Assembly: GCA_902778665.1 (NCBI GenBank)
Contig: CACYYN010000026.1
Location: 1 to 55,803, forward strand
Origin: Oscillospiraceae bacterium
GTDB taxonomy: Bacteria > Bacillota > Clostridia > Oscillospirales > Oscillospiraceae
Reading direction: 5' to 3'
Length of the DNA stretch: 55,803 nucleotides
Shown here in pieces: positions 2 to 40,182 of this stretch. Position 1 is the first letter of the stretch. Each line of letters opens with the position of its first letter. The translations under genes were made by a program, and so were the position numbers. Below the pieces are notes generated by a model, which worked only from the letters and a program-made list of their open reading frames with translations, searched no databases and was not told the origin of the DNA.

Positions 2-2443
2 GTGGGCTCGTCCAACCTCTCCAATGCTGCCCTGACCAGCGGCCTGGAATGGAACACAAAGATCACGAAGAAGGATCTGCCGGAGACCATCGATAAGGTG
101 GCGGCCACCTTTGAGTTCTACTGGAACGACAAGGAATTCGAATACTACGATGAAGGACAGCGGGAGCGTCTGGCCCGCGCGCTGCAGGCGGAGAAGTATT
201 TCGAAAGCAACAACGACGAGATTTTCAACAGGGAGATCCGGCCGTACTCGTATCAACAGGAGATTCTGGATAAGCTGCAGGCGGAACGCACCGTCCGTGG
301 CTATACCCGCAATCTTGTGGTTGCCGTAACCGGCACTGGCAAAACGGTCATTTCTGCGCTGGACTACAAGGCGTTCCAGAAAAAGAATCCTGGTAAACCA
401 TGCCGGCTGCTGTTCGTTGCCCACCGAGAAGAGATTCTGAAACAGAGCCTGTACACGTTTCGGGCTGTGCTGAGAAATGCCAATTTCGGCGATATGTTCG
501 TTGGGGGATATCGGCCGGACAGCATCGACCATCTGTTTATGTCCATCCAGACTTTTAACAGCCAGGACTTTACAGCGAAGACCTCGCCGGATTTCTATGA
601 TTACATTATCGTGGACGAGTTCCACCATGCGGCGGCACCTACTTATCAGAAGCTGCTGGAATACTATCAGCCGAAGATTCTTCTGGGACTGACTGCCACG
701 CCGGAACGAATGGACGGCAAGAGCATCCTCGGCTACTTCAATAATCGTATTGCAGCGGAAATCCGCTTGCCGGAAGCTATCGACCGCAAACTCCTGTGCC
801 CCTTCCAGTATTTTGGCGTGACCGACACGGTGGACCTGGACAAGCTGAAATGGTCAGCCGGTGGTTATGATAAATCGGAGCTATCCAAGATTTACACACT
901 CAGCGGCATGATGGCTGAACGCCGCGCGGATCTGGTTGTGTCTTCACTGCTGAAATACGTGACAGATATTGACGATGTGAAAGGCTTGGGCTTCTGTGTC
1001 ACGGTGGATCATGCGGAGTTTATGTGCCGGTATTTCAATGAACATGGGATTCCGTCCATGTTCCTGACCGGCAAGTCCCCGGATGAAGAGCGTCGCAGCG
1101 CGAAGGATAGTCTCGTTTCCGGCAAGGTGCGTTTTATCTTCGTCGTGGATATCTATAACGAAGGAGTGGACATTCCGGAGGTCAATACGGTCCTGTTCCT
1201 CCGCCCGACAGAATCGCTGACGATTTTCCTGCAGCAGTTAGGCCGAGGCCTGCGACTGGCAGAGGATAAAGAGTGCCTGACCGTTCTCGATTTCATTGGC
1301 CAGGCAAATAGGAAGTATAACTTTGAAGACAAGTTTGCTGCGCTTCTCTCCAACACCACGCGCAGCGTGACCCGCGAGATCAAGGACGGCTTTGTATCCG
1401 CGCCCAAGGGCTGCTATATCCAGTTGGAGAAAAAGGCGGCTAAGTACATACTCGATAACATCCGAGCCTCATATGGCAACACCGCCGGCCTGGTGACGAG
1501 AGTTGCATCCTTTGAGGAAGATACCGGCATGAAGCTCAACCTTGTCAATTTCCTGGACTATTATCATCTCGATCCACGGAGCGTTTACAAGTTTGCCACG
1601 TTCTCCCGGCTGTGTGCCCGTGCCGATGTGATCGACGATTTCAACGAACCGCTGGAAGAGACGATTACAAAGGCGATGGCAAGGCTAGCCGTGATCGATT
1701 CCCGCCGCTGGATCTCGTTCCTGCTGGATTTGCTGCCGCGGTTGAAAGATGTGGATTTCGATAAGCTTTCCTATATCGAAAAACGGATGCTGCAGATGTT
1801 TTATATCACAGTCTGGGGCAAGGCTGCTGAAGACTGGAGCAGTGACGAGGTTTGGGATACTCTCTATGCCTTGGCGGATAGCCCGGTGCTGCTGAGTGAG
1901 CTGATCGACCTGCTGAGATACCAATACAATCGCATCGACTTTATTGACGCTCCGGTGGATGTGGGCTTTGATTGCCCGCTGGATCTGCATTGTACCTATA
2001 CCCGTGACCAGCTGCTTGTGGCGCTGGACTTCCTGAAGCCCGCGACTGTGCGTGAGGGCGTGAAGTGGCTGCCGGATCATAAGCTGGACGTGTTCTTCGT
2101 AACGCTGAATAAGGCGGACAAGGACTATTCGCCCACGACCATGTACAACGACTATTCGATCAACGAGTGGCTGTTCCACTGGCAGAGCCAGAGCACCACG
2201 GCAGAGCGTTCCTCCACCGGCCAGCGGTACATCCACCATAAAGAGCAGGGGAGCCGTGTGCTGCTGTTTGTCCGGGAGTTCAAGGCTGACCGGATCACTA
2301 ACGGCGCTGAGGCCTATACCTATCTCGGCACGGCCAACTATGTAAAGCACGAGGGTGAAAAGCCCATGAATATCACCTGGCGTCTGGATGCCCCGATCCA
2401 GGCGAAGTATTTGAAGAAGACGAACAAGCTAGTGGTGGGGTAA
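2..2443 (+). CDS. SF2 helicase with PLD remnant and DUF3427-type C-terminus (5' partial)
   Basis: An ATP-dependent nucleic-acid helicase or translocase of superfamily 2. The reading frame is open from the window edge, so the true start lies upstream. The first visible residues (GSSNLSNAALTSGLEWN) resemble the end of a phospholipase D-like HKD domain, which normally precedes the helicase in DUF3427-type proteins. Visible motifs are Walker A TGTGKT near residue 110, DEFHH at 205-209, TATPER at 231-236 and QQLGRGLR near 411. The C-terminal part, from about 480, fits the DUF3427 family by architecture. Such PLD-helicase proteins occur in defence and repair islands, and the PLD part may act as a nuclease. 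It is followed after 73 bp by a second helicase gene on the same strand. Helicase assignment is firm. The PLD and DUF3427 parts are family-based inference. Confidence 0.88.
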   Translation: MGSSNLSNAALTSGLEWNTKITKKDLPETIDKVAATFEFYWNDKEFEYYDEGQRERLARALQAEKYFESNNDEIFNREIRPYSYQQEILDKLQAERTVRGYTRNLVVAVTGTGKTVISALDYKAFQKKNPGKPCRLLFVAHREEILKQSLYTFRAVLRNANFGDMFVGGYRPDSIDHLFMSIQTFNSQDFTAKTSPDFYDYIIVDEFHHAAAPTYQKLLEYYQPKILLGLTATPERMDGKSILGYFNNRIAAEIRLPEAIDRKLLCPFQYFGVTDTVDLDKLKWSAGGYDKSELSKIYTLSGMMAERRADLVVSSLLKYVTDIDDVKGLGFCVTVDHAEFMCRYFNEHGIPSMFLTGKSPDEERRSAKDSLVSGKVRFIFVVDIYNEGVDIPEVNTVLFLRPTESLTIFLQQLGRGLRLAEDKECLTVLDFIGQANRKYNFEDKFAALLSNTTRSVTREIKDGFVSAPKGCYIQLEKKAAKYILDNIRASYGNTAGLVTRVASFEEDTGMKLNLVNFLDYYHLDPRSVYKFATFSRLCARADVIDDFNEPLEETITKAMARLAVIDSRRWISFLLDLLPRLKDVDFDKLSYIEKRMLQMFYITVWGKAAEDWSSDEVWDTLYALADSPVLLSELIDLLRYQYNRIDFIDAPVDVGFDCPLDLHCTYTRDQLLVALDFLKPATVREGVKWLPDHKLDVFFVTLNKADKDYSPTTMYNDYSINEWLFHWQSQSTTAERSSTGQRYIHHKEQGSRVLLFVREFKADRITNGAEAYTYLGTANYVKHEGEKPMNITWRLDAPIQAKYLKKTNKLVVG

Positions 2444-2516
2444 TTCTATTCAGCACTACGTGTTTTCTCAAAAATCAGTTATTCAGGTTCTTTGTATGTA
2501 GAGAGGGAGCCTTCGT

Positions 2517-5500
2517 ATGACAAGTGTTTGCAGAGAAATATTCAAAGCGATCCACGAAGGAAAGTGGCTTAGCATTGAATATAAAAATCAAACAGGCAAG
2601 ATTACAAAGTATTGGATTGGTATCAAATCCTTAAATCTTCGTGATCTTAGTTTGATCGTGGATGGACTGCACCTTGGAGAACTAAAGGTTCAGCAGCTGA
2701 AAATCTTTATCATATCAATTTTGAATGCCGCCATTGTCGAAGGAAGCTATTGCGAAGTAAACAGAAAACTTGTTGAGGACATAAAACTTAATCCGACAAA
2801 ATACGCTGGCGTGTTTGACCAAATCCCGAATCTGAAAATCCTAAACTATCTCGTGGACTGCAATCGGTTGGACGCGACTCCGTATAGCTGCGAATACAAA
2901 CTGATTCACTGCTTTGACGCGGATCGTTTTGAAAACGGGAAATATCAGCTCGACGATGACCAGTTCGCGGAAATAGTCAGAGCCTTTCAATATCAGACAA
3001 ATAGTGAAGACGGGAAAATCCGGGTGAAACAACTTGGCTTAAATGCAATCAGCGTCCCGGTAAGGCAGGGCCTTTATGTCCTCGCGTACCACAAACTACA
3101 TTTGGATGTAGCAAACCGCATAATGCGTGTAGACGAGGATATCACATTCTGCAGAGAGTTTACTATTGAAGGCGATAAGCTGAGCATTCGACAGTTTCTC
3201 GAACCATATGATATGGATTTGTTAGATGATCCGCATGCAAATTTAGAAACTATCAAGGACTATATAACCCTGAATAATCCTAATCTCCGCGGCGTAGATG
3301 ACATGCCCTATGTGATTGCTATCGCCATGGATTATGCACTCGATCTGGAACATGAATATTCTGCAATCATGGAAATGTACCAGGAAGAGAAAGTTACTGC
3401 GACGATTAGGGCGTTCTTTGGAGAGTATCTTAAGCGGTCGGTTCGCCGGAAACAATACCCCTTGGCTCTTCTAAACCGCAAAGTCAATTTGGACCAATTA
3501 CTTGCGATTAACAATGCGATGAGATATCCACTGGCGTACATTCAGGGGCCGCCGGGAACTGGGAAAACAAATACAATAATGAATACGATCATGACAGCCT
3601 TTTCCAATGATAGGACTGTCTTGTTTGCATCCAATAACAACCACCCCATCGATGAGGTTTATAAAAAGATGCGCCAGCTACGGTATCAGGGAAGACCTAT
3701 TCCTTTTCCGATGATTCGGCTTGGTAATGTTGAGGTGGTTAAAAAAGCGCTGAATGAAATGCGCACGCTCTATGAGCAGGTAAAAAATGTAAATGTTTAC
3801 GATTCTACTTTGGACAAAAGAAAGGGACAGGAAGTCCAACGCACAGCACAGCTTACGAAGCTGTTAGAAGAATACTATGAGATACTTGATCTTCGGGAAC
3901 GCAGGGAAGTAACCCAGCATTTGTTAGAAGAGAACAATCAGTTTAACTTTCAATTTGAACTGAGGGGACGGCAACTTGCTGAAATTGACCAGCGACTGGC
4001 AGAGATAGGCAATATCACCGATGCAGACGCCTTGAATCTCCTTGAAGAAAACGAAAAAGACTATCTGCTTTATCTTAACTTTACATCAGTCAAACACATT
4101 AAAAGAATAGGGGAGCCGAAAAACAAAGAGTTATTTGACATTATCTATATGGATGCTGATGATCCGGAGAGGGTCAACCGATTCAATCAGTACTTAAGCA
4201 ATCCGGAAAATGTCCGGCTATTCCAGCGAATCTTCCCAATTATCGCCACGACATGTATCTCTGCACATCGCATTGGTGATCCAGAAGTCTATTTTGATAT
4301 GGTCATTATGGATGAAGCGAGTCAGTGTAATACTGCGGTGTCCTTAGTACCTATCTTGCGTGGGGAGAGCTTAATGCTGGTTGGCGATCCTCAACAATTA
4401 CAGCCGGTTATTCTTCTGAATGAGGCCGACAATCAAACGTTGAGGAAGAAATATGCAGTTGCACCAGAGTATGATTACATAGCAAATTCAGTATATAAAA
4501 CTTTTCTTGCCTGTGATCCTGTTAGCGATGAGGTGCTGCTACATCATCATTATCGATGCCATCCCAAGATTATCGGGTTTAATAACAAAAAGTACTATAA
4601 CGGAAAACTGGTTATCGAAAGCAACGTTGAATGCAAGACCCCTCTGACATTCGTGGATGTAGAAGAATCGGATGCCGATATAAAGAATACATCCCCTGGA
4701 GAGGCAGAGCAAATAATCAACTATGTGAGAGCCTACCCCGGAAAGAACATTGGCATAATTACTCCTTTTGCAAACCAGAAAATGCTGATAAGCGATGAGC
4801 TTGCTAAGATAGGCCGACGTGATGTTGCGTGTGGTACAGTCCACGCATTTCAAGGAGATGAGAAAGACGTAATTCTTTTCTCGCTTGGCCTCTCTGATGT
4901 AACGCAGATAAAAACCTATGATTGGCTAAAAAACAACAGAGAGCTGATCAATGTTGCCACGTCACGAGCTAGGCAAGAGTTGATTGTTTTAGGAAGTTCA
5001 AAGAACCTGGATCGCCTGCACAGCAAATCGGACCAGGATGATCTTTACGAGTTGGTGGATTATATAAGATCGAATGGCATGAGTCAGGTGTCCCAGAGAA
5101 CAGCTCTGTCGCGAGCTCTTGGCATTAAGCCTTACAGTACGGAAACTGAAGCAGCATTTATGGAAAACCTGAATCATGCGATCGACAACATCCAGCCATC
5201 TGGTTCACGATACTCAGTCCACAAAGAAGTTCCTGTGGCCCAGGTGTTCGTTGACAATCCTTCCTATGCGGATTTGTTTTATACAGGACGTTTTGATTTT
5301 GTCGTCTATGAACGCGGCCCAGCAAAGACAGAGTTTCCGGTGTTGGCAATCGAGCTAGACGGTAAGGAACACTTTGAGGATGAAATCGTTAAAGAGCGAG
5401 ATCGGAAGAAGAACCAGATTTGTAAAGAGCATGATTTTGAACTGATTCGCGTCGAAAACACATATGCCAGACGATATCACTACATCAAAGATATTCTGAT

Positions 5501-5531
5501 CCGTTACTTCACGAACGACCGAGCAAGTTAA
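2517..5531 (+). CDS. SF1 (DNA2/UPF1-like) helicase with C-terminal nuclease-like domain
   Basis: A 1004-residue SF1B-type helicase fused to a restriction-endonuclease-like domain. The first 340 residues match no family I recognise. The helicase core shows GPPGTGKT at 344-351, DEAS at 599-602, GDPQQL at 623-628, QGDEKD at 779-784 and TSRAR at 815-819, with a helical insert between motifs I and II. The C-terminus (about 900-1000) has Asp927, then ELDGKEH with Glu946 and Asp948, then a basic RDRKKNQ stretch. This is the pattern of VSR/DUF2726-like PD-(D/E)xK nucleases. The start ATG has a GAGGGAG ribosome site. Base composition is visibly more AT-rich than the helicase genes on either side of the block (2-2443 and 6376-8634), suggesting a different origin. 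The likely job is DNA or RNA unwinding coupled to cleavage. The target is unknown. Confidence 0.88.
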   Translation: MTSVCREIFKAIHEGKWLSIEYKNQTGKITKYWIGIKSLNLRDLSLIVDGLHLGELKVQQLKIFIISILNAAIVEGSYCEVNRKLVEDIKLNPTKYAGVFDQIPNLKILNYLVDCNRLDATPYSCEYKLIHCFDADRFENGKYQLDDDQFAEIVRAFQYQTNSEDGKIRVKQLGLNAISVPVRQGLYVLAYHKLHLDVANRIMRVDEDITFCREFTIEGDKLSIRQFLEPYDMDLLDDPHANLETIKDYITLNNPNLRGVDDMPYVIAIAMDYALDLEHEYSAIMEMYQEEKVTATIRAFFGEYLKRSVRRKQYPLALLNRKVNLDQLLAINNAMRYPLAYIQGPPGTGKTNTIMNTIMTAFSNDRTVLFASNNNHPIDEVYKKMRQLRYQGRPIPFPMIRLGNVEVVKKALNEMRTLYEQVKNVNVYDSTLDKRKGQEVQRTAQLTKLLEEYYEILDLRERREVTQHLLEENNQFNFQFELRGRQLAEIDQRLAEIGNITDADALNLLEENEKDYLLYLNFTSVKHIKRIGEPKNKELFDIIYMDADDPERVNRFNQYLSNPENVRLFQRIFPIIATTCISAHRIGDPEVYFDMVIMDEASQCNTAVSLVPILRGESLMLVGDPQQLQPVILLNEADNQTLRKKYAVAPEYDYIANSVYKTFLACDPVSDEVLLHHHYRCHPKIIGFNNKKYYNGKLVIESNVECKTPLTFVDVEESDADIKNTSPGEAEQIINYVRAYPGKNIGIITPFANQKMLISDELAKIGRRDVACGTVHAFQGDEKDVILFSLGLSDVTQIKTYDWLKNNRELINVATSRARQELIVLGSSKNLDRLHSKSDQDDLYELVDYIRSNGMSQVSQRTALSRALGIKPYSTETEAAFMENLNHAIDNIQPSGSRYSVHKEVPVAQVFVDNPSYADLFYTGRFDFVVYERGPAKTEFPVLAIELDGKEHFEDEIVKERDRKKNQICKEHDFELIRVENTYARRYHYIKDILIRYFTNDRAS

Positions 5532-5571
5532 AGACTGCAATTCTTGATATTATCAAAGGAAAGATGTTTAC

Positions 5572-5901
5572 ATGGAGCACCAGAAAGTGACGAAGTACAA
5601 CAAACTTGTTCGTGACCGTATCCCGGAGATTATCGAATCCTCCGGCAAGTCCTGTACAACAGAAATTCTATCCGCCGAAGACTATCTCCGTATGATTGAT
5701 GCAAAGCTGGATGAAGAGCTCGCGGAATACCATAAGGATCAGAATATCGAGGAATTAGCAGATCTTTTGGAAGTAATTCGAGCAGCAGCTATTGCTCGAG
5801 GCTATACGATAGAAGATCTGGAGCGGGTGCGCGCAGAAAAGGCCGCCAAACGAGGCGGCTTTGAAAAGCGGATTCTGCTGAAAGAAGTAGTGGAGGAATA
5901 A
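5572..5901 (+). CDS. MazG-like / PRA-PH-like nucleotide pyrophosphohydrolase
   Basis: A 109-residue all-alpha NTP pyrophosphohydrolase of the MazG superfamily. The N-terminus YNKLVRDRIPEII is typical of the phosphoribosyl-ATP-pyrophosphohydrolase-like branch. The metal-binding pattern EExxE (48-52) followed by ExxD (61-64) is intact, so it is probably active on a nucleoside triphosphate or modified nucleotide. It lies 40 bp after the SF1 helicase-nuclease gene and 1 bp before the next gene, so it is almost certainly co-transcribed. MazG-type enzymes serve nucleotide-pool cleaning and also appear in phage-related contexts, where nucleotide depletion or (p)ppGpp removal has been proposed. Its position inside a helicase/nuclease cluster is the interesting point. 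The substrate cannot be read from sequence. Confidence 0.85.
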   Translation: MEHQKVTKYNKLVRDRIPEIIESSGKSCTTEILSAEDYLRMIDAKLDEELAEYHKDQNIEELADLLEVIRAAAIARGYTIEDLERVRAEKAAKRGGFEKRILLKEVVEE

Positions 5902-5902
5902 G

Positions 5903-6364
5903 ATGCCGCGTACAAATTGGTCGAAGCTTTCTCCGTTACAACTTGGCCGGTATGCTGAATACTACGCAAAAATGGAGTTCGCTTCCTATGGCTTTGAAGT
6001 GTACACATCGGAAGTTGACGATCACGGAGTAGATTTTATTGCCAAAAATCCGCATAACAATCAGTTCTATGAAGTGCAAGTTAAATCTATTCGGAATACG
6101 GGATATGTCTTTGTTCAGAAAGACAAGATAGAGCTTCAGGAGAATTGGCTCCTATGCCTTCTGCGGTTTGTCGATGGCACTTTGCCGGAGGTGTGCATTA
6201 TTCCTGCAACAACATGGGCTACAGCAAAGGAGCCTTTCGTAAGCAGAGACTATGACAAGGAAGGACAGAAGAGCAAACCGGAGTGGGGGATCAATCTATC
6301 AAAGAAGAATCTCCCCAAACTTGAAGCCTATGCGTCAGATGATTTCTTTAGTAAATGGCTGTGA
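5903..6364 (+). CDS. Small PD-(D/E)xK-like nuclease (DUF4365/Mrr-like)
   Basis: A 153-residue protein. The N-terminal helix GRYAEYYAKMEFASYGFEVYT, the acidic HGVDF (Asp44) and the strand YEVQVKS (Glu57, Gln59, Lys61) match the core of Holliday-junction-resolvase and Mrr-like folds (D...QxK or ExK). Proteins of the DUF4365 type have the same G-x-x-A-E helix and D...E/QxK layout. It begins 1 bp after the MazG-like gene and ends 11 bp before the next helicase, in the same AT-richer block. The probable role is a structure-specific or restriction-type DNase working with the neighbouring helicases. An inactive DNA-binding version is possible, because the motif II residue is Gln/Glu rather than a clean ExK. 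Confidence 0.7.
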   Translation: MPRTNWSKLSPLQLGRYAEYYAKMEFASYGFEVYTSEVDDHGVDFIAKNPHNNQFYEVQVKSIRNTGYVFVQKDKIELQENWLLCLLRFVDGTLPEVCIIPATTWATAKEPFVSRDYDKEGQKSKPEWGINLSKKNLPKLEAYASDDFFSKWL

Positions 6365-6375
6365 GGTGAACCACC

Positions 6376-8634
6376 ATGCCTGAATACAGATCGGCCTCCG
6401 GCAGCACGGCCGAGGATCTGTTCATAGATCTTTTCGCAGATACCTTTGGAGCAGAAAAAGCCGGGTATCTGTATTCACAGTACCCGTTTTACGACATTTA
6501 TCAGAATGCCCGCTTCGCCGACTTCGTGCTGGAAAACGGCGCGACTCGCGTTGCCATTGAGATCGACGACGAAGCCTCCCACAACCCGCGCCTGGTGTCG
6601 CAGGACAAATTCTACGATGATCTGCTGAAGCAGAACAGTATGATTCACTTGGGGTGGGATGTATACCGCTGGGCAGTCCGGCAGATGCAGAAGCAGCCGG
6701 AAACCGTAAAGGACGAGTTGCGCGTGTTCCTTGGCAGCGATCCGCGGTTCAAGGAGATCGAGGACTATCTGCCTACTCAGCAGGGCCGGGCGCTGAAAGC
6801 CGATCAGCTGGAGCTGCGAGAGTATCAGCAAGAAGCGCTGGATTCACTGCAGGCCATGCGGCAAAACCGGGAGACCATCGCGCTGCTTTACCATGCAACC
6901 GGAACAGGTAAAACCGTTACCGCAGTCATGGACGCCAAACGCTGCGGCGGGCGGGTGCTGTTCGTGACGCACACAATGGAGCTGGTGAACCAGGCTTACA
7001 ACACCTTCCGAGACCTTTGGCCGGAGGTGATGGTCGGCAAGTTTGCGGACAACCTCAAAGAGCCAGACGCCCACGTGGTATGCGGCAGCATCCAGAGCGT
7101 GGCGCTGAACCTGGATCAGTTCCAGGAGGACGCTTTCGACTATCTGATCATCGACGAGGCTCACCACGCCTCCGCGGATACATATCAGAAGGTGCTGGCC
7201 TATTTCAAACCGCAGTTTACGCTGGGGCTCACTGCAACGCCGGAGCGGGCGGATGACGTAAATATCCTGGAGATCTTCAAGAACACCGCTCACAAGCTGG
7301 ATATCCAGACCGCCGTGGAGATTGGTGCCCTGGTGCCGGTCCGCTGCATCCGCATCCATACCAACATCGATATGACCAAGGTGCGCTTCAACAGCGTCCA
7401 GTACAACATCCGTGATCTGGACGTGAAGATCTGTGTGACCGAACGCAATCAGCTCATTGTGGATACTTGGCTGGACTATGTGAAGGACAAGCGTACCGTC
7501 GTGTTCTGCGCCTCCGTGAAGCACGCCGAGCAGATCGCGGAGCTGTTCCGGGCGGCGGGTGTCGCTGCGATTGCGGTTTCCGGCAGCATGAAAACTTCCG
7601 AACGCAACGAGCAGCTTGCCAAGTTCGCAAGTGGTGAGATCAAGGTTCTCTGCGCCTGCGATCTGTTGAATGAGGGCTGGGACTGCCCGCAGACCGAAGT
7701 GCTGTTCATGGCGCGCCCCACTATGTCAAAGGTGCTGTATACGCAGCAGCTTGGCCGCGGTATGCGCACGGCCGAGGGCAAGGATCATCTGATGGTCTTC
7801 GACTTCGTGGATAATGCCAGCCAGTACAATATGCCCTATTCGCTTCACCGCCTGTTCAAGCTGAACGAGTATCACGCAGGCGGCACGGTTGTCGGTAAAA
7901 AGGGCCAGCGCGAAGCCGAGGACGACCTCTACCGAAAGGGCGAAAAGCCGGACGTCATCATCGACTATCCCGTGGACGCCACCGATTACGAGCTGGTTGA
8001 CATCTTCAACTGGCAGGAAGAGGCTGCCGGGATGATCTCACAGATGGAGTTCGTGCACCGGGTCGATGTGCAGACCGAGACCATCGAGCGCTATGTGCGG
8101 GAAGGCAAGCTGGTGCCGGATCTGATCGTGCCCATGAGTGAGCACCGCACCTTCAAGTATTTCAAAGAGGAGACCCTGCAGGCCTATGCCGAGCAATACG
8201 GCTGGAAGCTCATTGACGACAGCAACCGCAAGCAGCTGTTCATGGAAATGGTCGAACAGATGGACATGAGCTATTGCTATAAGCCGGTGCTGCTGAAAGC
8301 GATCCTGACCTATGCCGACGCTGCCGGGCGTGTGAAGATCAGCGATATTGTTTCCTATTTCCGTAGCTTCTACGAGGCCAGACGCGCTGCAGGTCTGAAG
8401 GTTGAGAAGGCCAACAGCATCTTTGCCAAGGGAGGCTACACTGACAAGGAGGCCGAGCGGAACATTCTTTCCAATCCTTTCAAGCGCTTTGAGGACATGA
8501 ACATGATGCGCCATACCAAAACGCTGGGTATCATCGAGGTTGACGGCACCGTGTGGAAGAAACTGAGCGAGGATGAGAAGAAGAGGATTGAAGAGATTTG
8601 TGATGAAAAGCTTACCGAGTATTATTTGCGATAA
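6376..8634 (+). CDS. Nuclease-SF2 helicase fusion (HsdR-like DEAD/DEAH protein)
   Basis: A 752-residue protein with an N-terminal nuclease-like domain and an SF2 helicase core. Residues 1-120 contain FADFVL (Asp49) and AIEIDDEASH (Glu62, Asp64), then a DKFYDD helix and HLGWDVYRW, a VSR/DUF559-like PD-(D/E)xK pattern. The helicase has ATGTGKT at 174-180, DEAHH at 260-264, TATPER at 286-291 and QQLGRGMR at 457-464. The last 250 residues are of unknown fold. The start ATG is 11 bp after the previous stop. The layout resembles type I restriction HsdR subunits, but no HsdM or HsdS gene is present in the window. Base composition is GC-richer, like the first helicase and unlike the three genes between them. 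Confidence 0.88.
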   Translation: MPEYRSASGSTAEDLFIDLFADTFGAEKAGYLYSQYPFYDIYQNARFADFVLENGATRVAIEIDDEASHNPRLVSQDKFYDDLLKQNSMIHLGWDVYRWAVRQMQKQPETVKDELRVFLGSDPRFKEIEDYLPTQQGRALKADQLELREYQQEALDSLQAMRQNRETIALLYHATGTGKTVTAVMDAKRCGGRVLFVTHTMELVNQAYNTFRDLWPEVMVGKFADNLKEPDAHVVCGSIQSVALNLDQFQEDAFDYLIIDEAHHASADTYQKVLAYFKPQFTLGLTATPERADDVNILEIFKNTAHKLDIQTAVEIGALVPVRCIRIHTNIDMTKVRFNSVQYNIRDLDVKICVTERNQLIVDTWLDYVKDKRTVVFCASVKHAEQIAELFRAAGVAAIAVSGSMKTSERNEQLAKFASGEIKVLCACDLLNEGWDCPQTEVLFMARPTMSKVLYTQQLGRGMRTAEGKDHLMVFDFVDNASQYNMPYSLHRLFKLNEYHAGGTVVGKKGQREAEDDLYRKGEKPDVIIDYPVDATDYELVDIFNWQEEAAGMISQMEFVHRVDVQTETIERYVREGKLVPDLIVPMSEHRTFKYFKEETLQAYAEQYGWKLIDDSNRKQLFMEMVEQMDMSYCYKPVLLKAILTYADAAGRVKISDIVSYFRSFYEARRAAGLKVEKANSIFAKGGYTDKEAERNILSNPFKRFEDMNMMRHTKTLGIIEVDGTVWKKLSEDEKKRIEEICDEKLTEYYLR

Positions 8635-8679
8635 ATGACAATTATTCCCGATTCATTTTCTGTGTGGGGAGGTACTAAT

Positions 8680-9084
8680 GTGATGATGAAGATTGACCTT
8701 GAGCTAAAGGGTGTCGGGCCACACGCAGATACTCATTTGGTTGAGAACGTAAAATCTCTTAATATGGTTATTTTTGCAGAAAATGACTCTGGAAAAAGCT
8801 TTATTAGCAAATCGTTTAAGCGCATTTCTGAAAGAAAGGCGCTTGATGAGTCGAATGTAGAAGCAGTTCATGTGAACGACGAGGATAATTCTATTGATAT
8901 AAACCTTGCGATCGAAACGAGCAGGTTTTTCCAGCTTGATAAAAACGAGGCCAAGAAACTAGCGGAAAAGAATTGCTTGATCGTCCGCGAAGGATGGGAA
9001 GGGACAGCAAGAAGATATAGCCTCAGCCGTGGACAAATTGAAATAATGAGACCAGCCTTTGAAGCAAGTAATTGGGGCAAGTAG
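8680..9084 (+). pseudogene. Truncated P-loop ATPase (RecF/SMC-like N-terminus)
   Basis: Only the first 135 residues of a much larger ATPase remain. They start MKIDLELKGVGPHADTHL, with a Walker A ENDSGKS, as in RecF, SbcC and AAA-type SMC-like proteins. Signature, coiled coil and Walker B are absent. The open frame runs back to 8635, but a GGGGAGG ribosome site at 8666-8672 selects GTG 8680 or ATG 8683 as start. After the stop at 9084 about 100 bp of non-coding sequence lead into sbcD. The gene most likely marks the eroded right edge of the helicase/nuclease island. A genuine short protein is less likely, because a P-loop without Walker B would not hydrolyse ATP. Confidence 0.65.
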
Positions 9085-36828: not shown

Positions 36829-39800
36829 ATGAAAAAAATAAACCGTCAACTTGCCATTTTGCTTGTAATGGTGCAGCTGTTCTGCCTTGGAGCGGTTGCA
36901 GCAGGAGCAGAAGGCGGCATGAATTTCGGAATCAAAGTGGGTGACACCATCCTGGAAACCGGAGTGTATTATACTTCTCCAGACGGGAGAACGCTTGAAA
37001 AAGCAGAGAGTGAGCCTGCCCAGTATATCATGGTGCGTATTGAGGACAATGCTCCGCACCTTGTGATGAAAGACTTCACGATTGAAGTGAATACAGAAGG
37101 CACACAGGATCCTACCTATGCAGGTGTTTACTGCCCGATTCCTGTGGTGATGGATATTTCCGGTGAGAACAGAATCATGAACAAAGGATATTTTTCACCG
37201 GACGGAATGCAGAAGTTCAGTATTGGCCTGAATCTGAATGATCAGGGAGCTATCATTACCGGTGACGGTTCTGTGGCTTTTCTCACCAATACTGAAAGCG
37301 ATTATAACGGATACGGGTACGGCATTCTCACCAGCCAGACCATTCTCCTGAGAGGGGACGGCCTGAGTGTGGATGCTTCCGGCGCTACTGCTGCCATGCA
37401 GACAATGCCTATGATTGACGATAACGTCCGTATCCAGGTGAATGCCGGAGAATCAGAAAGCCAGAGCAGCAGTGCCTGGAGCTTCCTGCCGGAGACGTAT
37501 ACCCAGAGCAGATATGTCTCTATGAATGTCGGAGAAGGCAGCACCGTGCAGCAGGCCTATCAGGCCTATGTGACAGGACAGCAGCAGAGCCTTCTGGATG
37601 ATCAGCAGAATCAGCAGGAGGAATTGCTGGCAGAGCAGCAGGCACAGATCGATGCGGAGAATGCGCGCAGGGAAGAAGAAGCAAGGCTTGCTGAAGAAGC
37701 GAGAATTGCAGAAGAACAGCGTCAGGCGGAAGAAGCCGCCCGGTTAGCAGAAGAGCAGCGCCAGGCCGAAGAAGCTGCCCGGAAAGCAGAAGAGCAGCGC
37801 CAGGCCGAAGAAGCTGCCCGGAAAGCAGAAGAGCAGCGCCAGGCCGAAGAAGCTGCCCGGTTAGCGGAAGAGCAGCGCCAGGCCGAAGAAGCCGCACGGT
37901 TAGCGGAAGAGCAGCGCCAGGCCGAAGAAGCCGCCCGGTTAGCGGAAGAGCAGCGCCAGGCTGAAGAAGCCGCCCGGTTAGCGGAAGAGCAGCGCCAGGC
38001 CGAAGAAGCAGCTCGGTTAGCAGAAGAGCAGCGCCAGGCCGAAGAAGCTGCCCGGAAAGCAGAAGAGCAGCGCCAGGCCGAAGAAGCTGCCCGGAAAGCG
38101 GAAGAGCAGCGCCAGGCTGAAGAAGCAACCCGTTTAGCGGAAGAGCAGCGTCAGGCGGAAGAAGCCGCTGCTGCTGCCCGTCAGGCAGAAGAGGCTAAGA
38201 AAGCCGAAGAAGCTCGTCTGGCCGAAGAAGCACGCCTGAAAGCCGAAGAGGAAGACAGAAAACGAGCTGAGGAAGAGGCAAACCAGATTAATTTGTTTGC
38301 GATTAACCCATCGGCAATTGAACAAATGCAGGTGATGACAGCTACACCGGAATCATTTGCTGAGATCCAGGCCTTTGAAGAACAGCAGCCAACTGTCGAG
38401 CAGCAGATTGAGGCACAGTTTGTTACGGTTGCCCCATCAAATGAGCAGCTTGTTGCAAGCCTTTCAGTAGACCCAGCTCCGGATTCCTCTCTTTCGAATG
38501 TTATATTTACTGTAAAAGATGATACTTCCGGCGTATTGGATCATGTCGATTCTACAATGGTGTATCAAATCGGATTTAAGAAAGAAGGAAATGAATTATG
38601 GCCAAGTGGCTGGAGCAAGCCTGCAGGCACAATGATAGAACTTACGGGGTTGGAAGACGGTAGACTGATTCGAGTGAAGAAAGAAGACGGAACAGATGCA
38701 TCTGCGAAGATATTTGAGATTACACAGCAGCCGCAGATTTCTAAGGTCGCGACTGTAAGCTCGACGCCTGTTTCAGGTAACGGAAAGACGGACGGCACCA
38801 TCACAATCAATACATCTTCCGGCAACTATATCTACCAGATTCGAGGGAAAGGCAGTGCTGCGACGTTTGTGGATATTACTGGAAACCAGATTTCCGGTCT
38901 GCCTGCCGGTACTTATGAAGTGCGCATCAAAGCGGAGAACAAAGTACAGGATGACGGAAAAAATATCTGCATTCTGGCATCCGGAGAGCCATATCTTGAG
39001 GTCACGGTTGGTTCCTACACCGCTCCGGTCAAACTGCCGACTCCGACAGCAAGATTCACGGCAACAGGTGAGAGCAGCGGTATTCTTACCGGTGTGAATG
39101 CCACCATGCAGTACGCGCTGGGAAGCGGTGCACCGTGGGTTCCGATTACAGGGGAAACGACAGTGATCCCTTCCGGCGTTACCGGCCAGATTCTGGTGCG
39201 TGCACTCGGCAGAGAGTCGGAGCACACGGCAGATTCTGATATCCAGGCGATTGAAATCAGGCAGTATTCCGCTCCTATTCCGGCAAATGTAGCGGTAAAC
39301 AACGCATCCGTAACGGTGGCTTACGGCACGCCCATGCAGATCAAGCGCAGCTCAGACAGTGAGTCGGGCTATGTGGATATTACAAATAAAATTGTGCGTA
39401 ATCTTCCACAGGGCAATTATGATGTGCGTTTCAAGGCGGATGGAAACATTCTCGCTTCCAAACCGCTGACGGTTTCTGTCACCAATATTGAGGCACGTTC
39501 ACTGATGATGAACCCGACCTCCGTTACACTGACGTCTACTGAATCCAGCGCAAAACTTGCCGTAGCATTCAACCCTCTTAACACTACCAACCAGACTGTT
39601 TACTGGACATCCTCCAACGAAAATGTGGTAAGGATCCATGAAAGCTACCGCACAACCTACGGTACGAACGGTGTGGCTATGGCTAGCGTTATTGCGGTAG
39701 GCGCAGGCACTGCAACCGTTACAGCCCGCACGGCCAATGGCCTCACCGCATCCTGCACGGTAACGGTTCAGGCAAACTACTACTTTACATACCACAAAAA

Positions 39801-40182
39801 CGGGAGCTGGTATTATGATGTGGGGGGTGCGTATACTGTGCAGGCCACCGGCCCGGCCAGCAGGCTTGTAGGAACAGGAGCCGCAGTGAAGATCAATGGC
39901 AAGACCATCAATCCGTATTACTACACGGTTTCAGCTGCAAATGACGGCACTTCCATTGTTACCATCTCCGAAACGGCAATGAAAGCGATGGAGCATCGGG
40001 CATATCAGACGCTTCAGTTTGTCTACTCTGACGGAGGGGTTGCAACATGCTATCTGCATATCCTCTCTGTACGAGATCGGCCGATCACAGGAGATGAAAG
40101 CAACGTCAGTTTGTGGGCTTGTCTGATGGTTCTCAGTGCTGCAGCCTTTGCGGTTACTGTCCGCAGACGGAAAGAGAATTGA
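36829..40182 (+). CDS. Large cell-wall-anchored protein with helical repeats and Ig-like domain
   Basis: A 1117-residue exported protein. The signal peptide is MKKINRQLAILLVMVQLFCL... ending near AGAEGG. Residues about 30-270 form an N-terminal beta-rich domain of unknown type. Residues 294-450 are a charged helical rod built of a 13-residue repeat (AEEQRQAEEAARL/K), 12 copies. Several beta-sandwich-like segments follow, including a BIG2-type Ig-like domain near 890-980 (NPTSVTLTSTESS..WTSSNENVV). The C-terminus has RPITG (1084-1088), a hydrophobic helix and RRRKEN, a noncanonical xPxTG sortase signal. Probably an adhesin or stalk protein. The repeat likely changes copy number. Confidence 0.88.
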   Translation: MKKINRQLAILLVMVQLFCLGAVAAGAEGGMNFGIKVGDTILETGVYYTSPDGRTLEKAESEPAQYIMVRIEDNAPHLVMKDFTIEVNTEGTQDPTYAGVYCPIPVVMDISGENRIMNKGYFSPDGMQKFSIGLNLNDQGAIITGDGSVAFLTNTESDYNGYGYGILTSQTILLRGDGLSVDASGATAAMQTMPMIDDNVRIQVNAGESESQSSSAWSFLPETYTQSRYVSMNVGEGSTVQQAYQAYVTGQQQSLLDDQQNQQEELLAEQQAQIDAENARREEEARLAEEARIAEEQRQAEEAARLAEEQRQAEEAARKAEEQRQAEEAARKAEEQRQAEEAARLAEEQRQAEEAARLAEEQRQAEEAARLAEEQRQAEEAARLAEEQRQAEEAARLAEEQRQAEEAARKAEEQRQAEEAARKAEEQRQAEEATRLAEEQRQAEEAAAAARQAEEAKKAEEARLAEEARLKAEEEDRKRAEEEANQINLFAINPSAIEQMQVMTATPESFAEIQAFEEQQPTVEQQIEAQFVTVAPSNEQLVASLSVDPAPDSSLSNVIFTVKDDTSGVLDHVDSTMVYQIGFKKEGNELWPSGWSKPAGTMIELTGLEDGRLIRVKKEDGTDASAKIFEITQQPQISKVATVSSTPVSGNGKTDGTITINTSSGNYIYQIRGKGSAATFVDITGNQISGLPAGTYEVRIKAENKVQDDGKNICILASGEPYLEVTVGSYTAPVKLPTPTARFTATGESSGILTGVNATMQYALGSGAPWVPITGETTVIPSGVTGQILVRALGRESEHTADSDIQAIEIRQYSAPIPANVAVNNASVTVAYGTPMQIKRSSDSESGYVDITNKIVRNLPQGNYDVRFKADGNILASKPLTVSVTNIEARSLMMNPTSVTLTSTESSAKLAVAFNPLNTTNQTVYWTSSNENVVRIHESYRTTYGTNGVAMASVIAVGAGTATVTARTANGLTASCTVTVQANYYFTYHKNGSWYYDVGGAYTVQATGPASRLVGTGAAVKINGKTINPYYYTVSAANDGTSIVTISETAMKAMEHRAYQTLQFVYSDGGVATCYLHILSVRDRPITGDESNVSLWACLMVLSAAAFAVTVRRRKEN
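37708..38175 (+). repeat. 12 tandem 39-bp repeats in the surface protein gene
   Basis: Twelve in-frame units, period 39 bp, each encoding AEEQRQAEEAARL or the Lys variant. The units are nearly identical at the DNA level in the middle and drift at both ends. Copy changes keep the reading frame. Confidence 0.95.

Follow-up and report, generated by a model that had tools for sequence, protein, structure and literature searches.

Positions 2-9084 of the window, by which we mean the whole stretch of DNA analysed (the entire contig G000:C26, 55,803 bp), form a patchwork defence island of separable modules, in which a two-gene pair is the conserved unit. The pair consists of M, a small MazG-like hydrolase, and E, a helicase with a predicted Vsr-like nuclease. 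In the phylum of the window, E and SauUSI-like helicase-nucleases recurrently have M, or a HIT protein in the place of M, as a linked neighbour on one side or the other. The association recurs from locus to locus, the partners are exchanged and also fused, the catalytic motifs are intact and the setting is one of defence. The recurrence of the pair suggests that certain enzymes that destroy DNA depend on a partner to keep the host's own DNA precursors clean.

Six open reading frames, all on the + strand, lie in this region at the coordinates given in the initial annotation, and sbcD and sbcC come next downstream. They are co-directional and tightly spaced as described there, with successive gaps of 73, 40, 1, 11 and 0 bp. 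It also holds that no methyltransferase, specificity-subunit, Cas or antitoxin family appears as a match of its own in profile scans of any of the six. Because the window is the entire contig, the first gene has no true start. Elsewhere in the window, the protein encoded at positions 36829-40182 (1,117 aa) begins with a signal-like segment and has an extended tract of EEQRQAEEAAR-type repeats.

E (6376..8634, + strand) is the core of the pair. By profiles and alignment it is composed of an N-terminal Vsr/MTES_1575-like nuclease, an SF2 helicase and a C-terminal domain. The nuclease match (E 3.7e-5) lies below the Pfam cut-off. All 97 rows that have the N-terminus conserve the predicted nuclease residues D49, E62 and D64, and the Walker residues K179/T180 are conserved in 99 of 99. 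The predicted structure has a pLDDT of 67 overall and is poor at the N-terminus, so the nuclease assignment rests on sequence. In profile comparison, residues 147-490 match SauUSI best and RadD next. The earlier label of HsdR-like for this gene is thus replaced: the type I models score far below their curated cut-offs (TIGR00348, 43 bits against 284.55; EcoAI-type model, 136 against 550), and neither hsdM nor hsdS is among the six genes. Membership of the SauUSI family was likewise rejected. PLD and DUF3427 are both missing (no match to either at E 0.01), and the profile match is limited to residues 147-490.

E gave no match on plasmids at 1e-80. In phages, 50 records match at 1e-40, all at <60% identity and one covering at least 80% of E; among the matches listed, the similarity lies mainly in the helicase core. 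In another phylum, E was found in one of 246 genomes drawn round a planctomycete MAG, and that one is the centre of the draw itself. Five loci (L047, L065, L049, L050 and L054) come from MAGs labelled as other phyla and carry E at 74-75% identity to that of the window. Some of these contigs (labels alphaproteobacterium, Chloroflexi and Desulfomonile) may be misbinned Clostridia.

M (5572..5901, + strand) encodes 109 aa and is E's conserved partner. It has no Pfam or other sequence-family match at E 0.01, and PADLOC has no model that matches it. Its assignment to the MazG-like all-alpha NTP pyrophosphohydrolases is based on an EExxE...ExxD metal-site motif, invariant in 26 of 26 aligned rows and present in 40 of 42 further members, and on a suggestive-only fold comparison in which the MazG, dCTPP1 and MazZ all-alpha NTP pyrophosphatases are prominent among the rows. 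In four loci (L022:9094-9984, L037:8599-9498, L040:8512-9522 and L075:2928-3941) M is fused in one open reading frame to an extra domain of about 190 aa after M or 225 aa before M. These extra domains gave no convincing Pfam or PDB match.

A scan with E returned 79 loci, some of them cut by contig ends. Beside E stand M alone in 46 loci, A with M in 12, A with M and D4 in three, A with B and M in one (L011, which has no D4), M with D4 in one (where D4 is a 26-aa remnant) and none of these in 16. M lies upstream in 55 of the 63 E loci that have at least 1.3 kb of upstream sequence. The other eight are L026, L061, L070, L076, L082, L083, L084 and L087, and E is split or partial in five of them (L070, L076, L082, L083 and L084). 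Among the 74 tree rows with upstream M, the gap between M and E is at most 51 bp in 45; in the other 29 it ranges from 128 bp to 1.9 kb, often with an extra gene between. The initial annotation had all the genes acting together and had proposed looking for the block in other genomes. The five-gene block fails this comparison, for no E relative (0/79, some loci truncated by contig ends) carries all of A, B, M, D4 and E, and it is the M-E pair that strongly co-occurs.

Of the remaining genes, B and D4 are variable cargo. Gene B (2517..5531, + strand) matches as an SF1 helicase with a C-terminal DUF2726/MTES-like nuclease domain, and a close homologue (>60% identity) is present in one of the 79 E loci. 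Mokosh-like PADLOC models reach at most 174 bits over the core only. Gene B was rejected as Mokosh, as the MkoA model is covered only at positions 620-1100 of 1112 and no full MkoA or MkoC with its partner gene was found. D4 (5903..6364, + strand) occupies the slot between M and E and is a small PD-(D/E)XK-like protein by weak profile matches. The DUF4365 identity proposed for this "D...QxK" protein survives as a weak resemblance to DUF4365 or Mrr-like families (Pfam, E 0.016-0.048), next to a match to phrog_5018 at E 1.8e-9. It is found in four of the 79 E loci, one copy being the 26-aa remnant. Gene six (8635..9084, + strand) had been called a truncated ATPase, and this is borne out. Its residues 18-92 match positions 5-79 of the 752-aa PDC-S06 AAA family, and a full PDC-S06 ATPase is rejected on that coverage; the gene is therefore an N-terminal remnant. 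It has no homologue in the 79 E loci. Lying between E and sbcD, the remnant is perhaps a sign of turnover at the island edge.

The surroundings of E are a defence island with exchangeable cargo. Which genes separate A from M and M from E differs among loci. Sixteen of 20 hand-picked neighbours match PADLOC models at 1e-10, some partially; the models include JetA, JetC, HamA, HamB, DruE, MzaC, MzaE, REase_I and HEC-06, and genes of Wadjet, Hachiman, Druantia, MZA and type I R-M are found near E. A PADLOC tally of 419 families for 93 neighbours, against 15 for 30 control genes of the window, is given little weight because families and not genes were counted. Family names of neighbours that were read by eye from sequence are tentative unless a profile match backs them. 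The defence reading of the initial annotation stands as to the island setting and as to a MazG-type, nucleotide-level partner tied to a helicase-nuclease; a single joint system is not borne out by the 79 E loci. The slot directly upstream of E holds recurrent small genes, e.g., L012:538-900 and L032:9532-9987. One, present in 13 loci and directly upstream of E in 12 of them, encodes 115 aa, the C-terminal part of which matches a D5-like regulator. DUF6998 is also among the small genes of this slot.

Gene A (2..2443, + strand) links the island to modification-dependent restriction. It matches ResIII and DUF3427 in Pfam and the PADLOC model mREase_IV at 633 bits, and its family profile aligns to residues 135-920 of SauUSI (7clg) at E 3e-86. 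An SF2 helicase core and a DUF3427 C-terminus, as expected of the SauUSI type, are both present. Intact relatives have about 1,049 aa, and the PLD nuclease half is missing from the window at the contig edge. These matches place gene A with the restriction helicases of SauUSI type (type IV, directed at modified DNA), and cleavage of m5C/hm5C DNA is predicted for it. The initial annotation knew no named system of this composition: gene A by itself does match a defined one (mREase_IV/SauUSI), and PADLOC gave no model for M and solely models of other systems for E.

The partnership of M extends to helicases of this kind. The census covered every M match in 396 genomes of the phylum, 62 in total, and counted M as being in one run when it is next to a helicase gene or has one small gene between. 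By this count 32 of the 62 share a gene run with E or a SauUSI-like helicase. Five are with E (the window, two in G069, one in G325 and a remnant in G155). Of the remaining 57, 27 are in a same-strand run with a SauUSI-like helicase (14 of 28 and 13 of 29 in two sets, frames checked); L230, where M faces a broken PLD gene, was left out. M is next to the helicase in 18 of these runs, and the helicase is frame-broken in L232 and L270. The other nine are helicase-HIT-MazG runs (L236, L245, L250, L255, L256, L258, L260, L262 and L268), of which L245 looks degraded. HIT is an adjoining gene or a fused domain for 13 of the 62 M. In L249, L259, L260 and L264 a single open frame of 236-258 aa encodes both HIT and MazG, and the fusion of L260 lies behind a SauUSI-like helicase. 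A NUDIX gene is just upstream of the fusion in L249, and NUDIX precedes M in L254 and L257. Other same-strand neighbours of M encode HNH proteins (L233; L219 weakly; L239 by similarity), a PDDEXK_7 protein (L246) and a MrcB_N protein (L225). The last (L225:2-1456, - strand) has the C-terminal domain of E (residues 630-751, 38 bits) ahead of its MrcB_N domain, and the domain shared with E is therefore mobile between restriction-type proteins. About half of the M genes lie away from E and SauUSI-like helicases; apart from the cases named above, these have no such neighbour or are ambiguous.

Seen from the helicase side, 30 loci of A-type helicases in a draw of 398 genomes have NUDIX adjacent in seven, HIT in one and no detected hydrolase in 22, a class that includes the window itself, cut at the contig end. 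A partner is therefore not obligatory. One of the seven NUDIX loci also has M, and in two an unmodelled PLD half stands between. The flanking NUDIX proteins are MutT/NudG-like. Among solved structures, the NUDIX partner of A in L031 comes closest to the CTP pyrophosphohydrolase 2rrk, which is E. coli Orf135/NudG, and to MutT proteins; it also matches MutT2. None of six A-linked NUDIX proteins scanned reaches a curated NCBIfam cut-off. None of the 23 RecQ-family loci used as a control showed a HIT, NUDIX or M model in its flanks, which spanned 1.5 kb or less and in some cases were truncated by a contig end; nor did any give a SauUSI- or E-type model above 70 bits.

HIT takes the place of M beside E as well. 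Judged from sequence, the identity of this alternative partner is certain: the two proteins scanned match PF01230 at E 5.8e-25 and 1e-22, and all 14 proteins checked have HxHxH. Twelve E loci came from 398 genomes drawn evenly across the phylum, four with M, five with HIT directly beside E, two with a frame-broken E and one (L100) in which neither partner was apparent until an M remnant was recognised. The class of G134, another class of the phylum (63 genomes, 88 HIT matches overall), has ten E loci: eight with HIT directly upstream, one with M and one (L114) with neither. Read by eye, L114 presumably has a HEPN-nucleotidyltransferase pair. The class of G155 (82 genomes) has 29 E loci, made up of 11 with M upstream (two of them weak, L126 and L133), four with M downstream, two with HIT on the other strand, six with a cut or broken E and six unbroken E without a partner within the fetched flanks. 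Among these partnerless six, a clear M remnant is present in L090 and a weak one in L136.

A quick tree of E was built from 99 rows, including the window and two duplicate rows. Its labels are M upstream 74, HIT upstream eight, HIT downstream two, M downstream two, HIT opposite one, none nine and unlabelled three. It requires at least three switches between M and HIT, a rough count because the tree is quick and carries a long-branch warning that includes L112. A strict swap of M for HIT had to be revised, since the helicase-HIT-MazG runs and HIT-MazG fusions have both together. From the class of G134, 15 HIT loci that are not beside E were chosen; two of them adjoin a SauUSI-like helicase and one adjoins a NUDIX gene. 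In L151:3704-4453, genes for HIT and a NUDIX hydrolase are adjacent, with no helicase in the fetched stretch.

The best explanation overall, which we hold tentatively and with less than even confidence, is that E attacks modified DNA while the hydrolase clears modified dNTPs, so that self is protected at the nucleotide pool. Going by their families, E would be an SF2 translocase that is powered by ATP, carries a Vsr-like nuclease and has no methyltransferase, and M would be a MazG-type hydrolase that converts (d)NTPs to NMP and PPi. E would attack DNA bearing a modification as SauUSI does, an analogy because only the helicase core is shared with SauUSI. Modified dNTPs could arise by salvage from broken phage DNA or from phage enzymes. 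The hydrolase would remove them before a polymerase incorporates them into host DNA, and protection of self would lie at the pool and not with a methyltransferase.

The substrates reported for related enzymes are consistent with this mechanism. According to the available text of the sources, SauUSI cuts m5C/hm5C DNA (PMC3874153), and E. coli Orf135 and mammalian RS21-C6 and DCTPP1 are called 5-methyl-dCTP hydrolases (PMC10742078). MutT2 is there described as most active on 5-methyl-dCTP, yet it also digests dCTP and other dNTPs (PMC10742078), and DCTPP1 is placed in the MazG-like superfamily (PMC4491611). As far as these texts go, members of two unrelated hydrolase families, MazG-like (DCTPP1) and NUDIX (Orf135 and MutT2), therefore act on the same nucleotide that SauUSI attacks once it is part of DNA. 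The mechanism is weakest for HIT, which does not yet fit; the nearest solved relatives of the HIT partners include FHIT and Ap4A phosphorylase. We know of no 5-methyl-dCTP activity of HIT proteins. A wider form, which we regard as doubtful, is pool immunity, in which modification-dependent helicase-nucleases would be paired with MazG, HIT or NUDIX hydrolases that purge modified dNTPs, leaving the mark only on invaders. M-E and HIT-E would then be two-gene systems, and the helicase-HIT-MazG runs and HIT-MazG fusions fuller versions.

It might instead be that the hydrolases often travel in defence islands and are not functionally coupled to the helicases. M, HIT and NUDIX do occur away from helicases and the islands carry many other defence genes; yet the tight same-strand gaps recur in separate lineages and on either side, HIT and MazG are fused, a clear M remnant is left where the partner decays, and the RecQ control gave 0 of 23, which makes mere hitch-hiking rather unlikely. 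We think it unlikely, too, that the hydrolase is an off-switch that breaks down a nucleotide signal governing the helicase-nuclease. Among the neighbour clusters seen, which vary, no domain or gene for a signal synthase recurs beside M-E. Such a role would suit the HIT-MazG fusions and the fact that nucleotide anhydrides can be acted on by HIT, NUDIX and MazG alike, and the available text of one study proposes it for the HIT protein ThsC of Thoeris II (PMC8565338). Quite unlikely, in our estimate, is a depletion effector, with E sensing or cutting phage DNA and the hydrolase draining (d)NTPs so that phage replication is blocked. Defences that deplete dNTPs exist, NTP hydrolysis is known for the MazG and MutT families and the hydrolases share gene runs with E or SauUSI-like genes; against this, the hydrolases are small house-cleaning enzymes of a single domain, in most of which no sensor domain was seen, HIT proteins are not known to drain dNTPs, and toxicity would be expected from a depletion that is always on. 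That the six genes are one defence or DNA-processing system is very improbable despite their co-directional, tight spacing in the window, given that the full set is in none of the 79 loci, B in one and D4 in four, and that gene six is a remnant.

A cognate methyltransferase is lacking in type IV restriction. To our knowledge, it is rarely asked how cells escape self-damage from stray modified nucleotides. A recurrent, exchangeable hydrolase beside such nucleases makes the question direct: is the same base destroyed as a dNTP and cut in DNA? If the proposed clearing of modified dNTPs is true, restriction without a methyltransferase would have its own form of self-protection, pool immunity, and it would link genes that current tools leave unnamed (M has no PADLOC match and E matches only other systems' models).

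The families themselves are already known; their recurrent coupling and the idea of pool immunity are new as far as the literature searched goes. Among the matches listed, which were available in part, no description of a MazG, HIT or NUDIX partner of SauUSI-like helicases was recognised. MazG, dCTPP1 and MazZ are prominent in the suggestive fold comparison of M and have the EExxE...ExxD motif in common with it, whereas M has no sequence-family match at E 0.01 and is often in gene runs of restriction-type nucleases. In the available text of DefensePredictor, a MazG NTP pyrophosphohydrolase is listed as a predicted, unvalidated defence domain, and no helicase partner, HIT/NUDIX swap or mechanism is named there (PMC13092281); this domain may be the same locus type as M-E. 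SauUSI of Staphylococcus aureus, a type IV restriction enzyme, is alike to gene A from helicase through C-terminus and has its SF2 core in common with E. It differs from E, which has a Vsr-like nuclease instead of PLD, no DUF3427 match and M as a partner, whereas the available text describes SauUSI as a single sufficient polypeptide (PMC3874153). Thoeris type II, in the available text, likewise has a HIT protein, ThsC, as an accessory in a defence operon (PMC8565338). There the operon is built on ThsA and ThsB, whereas the HIT proteins of the present loci accompany a helicase-nuclease and alternate with MazG or are fused to it.
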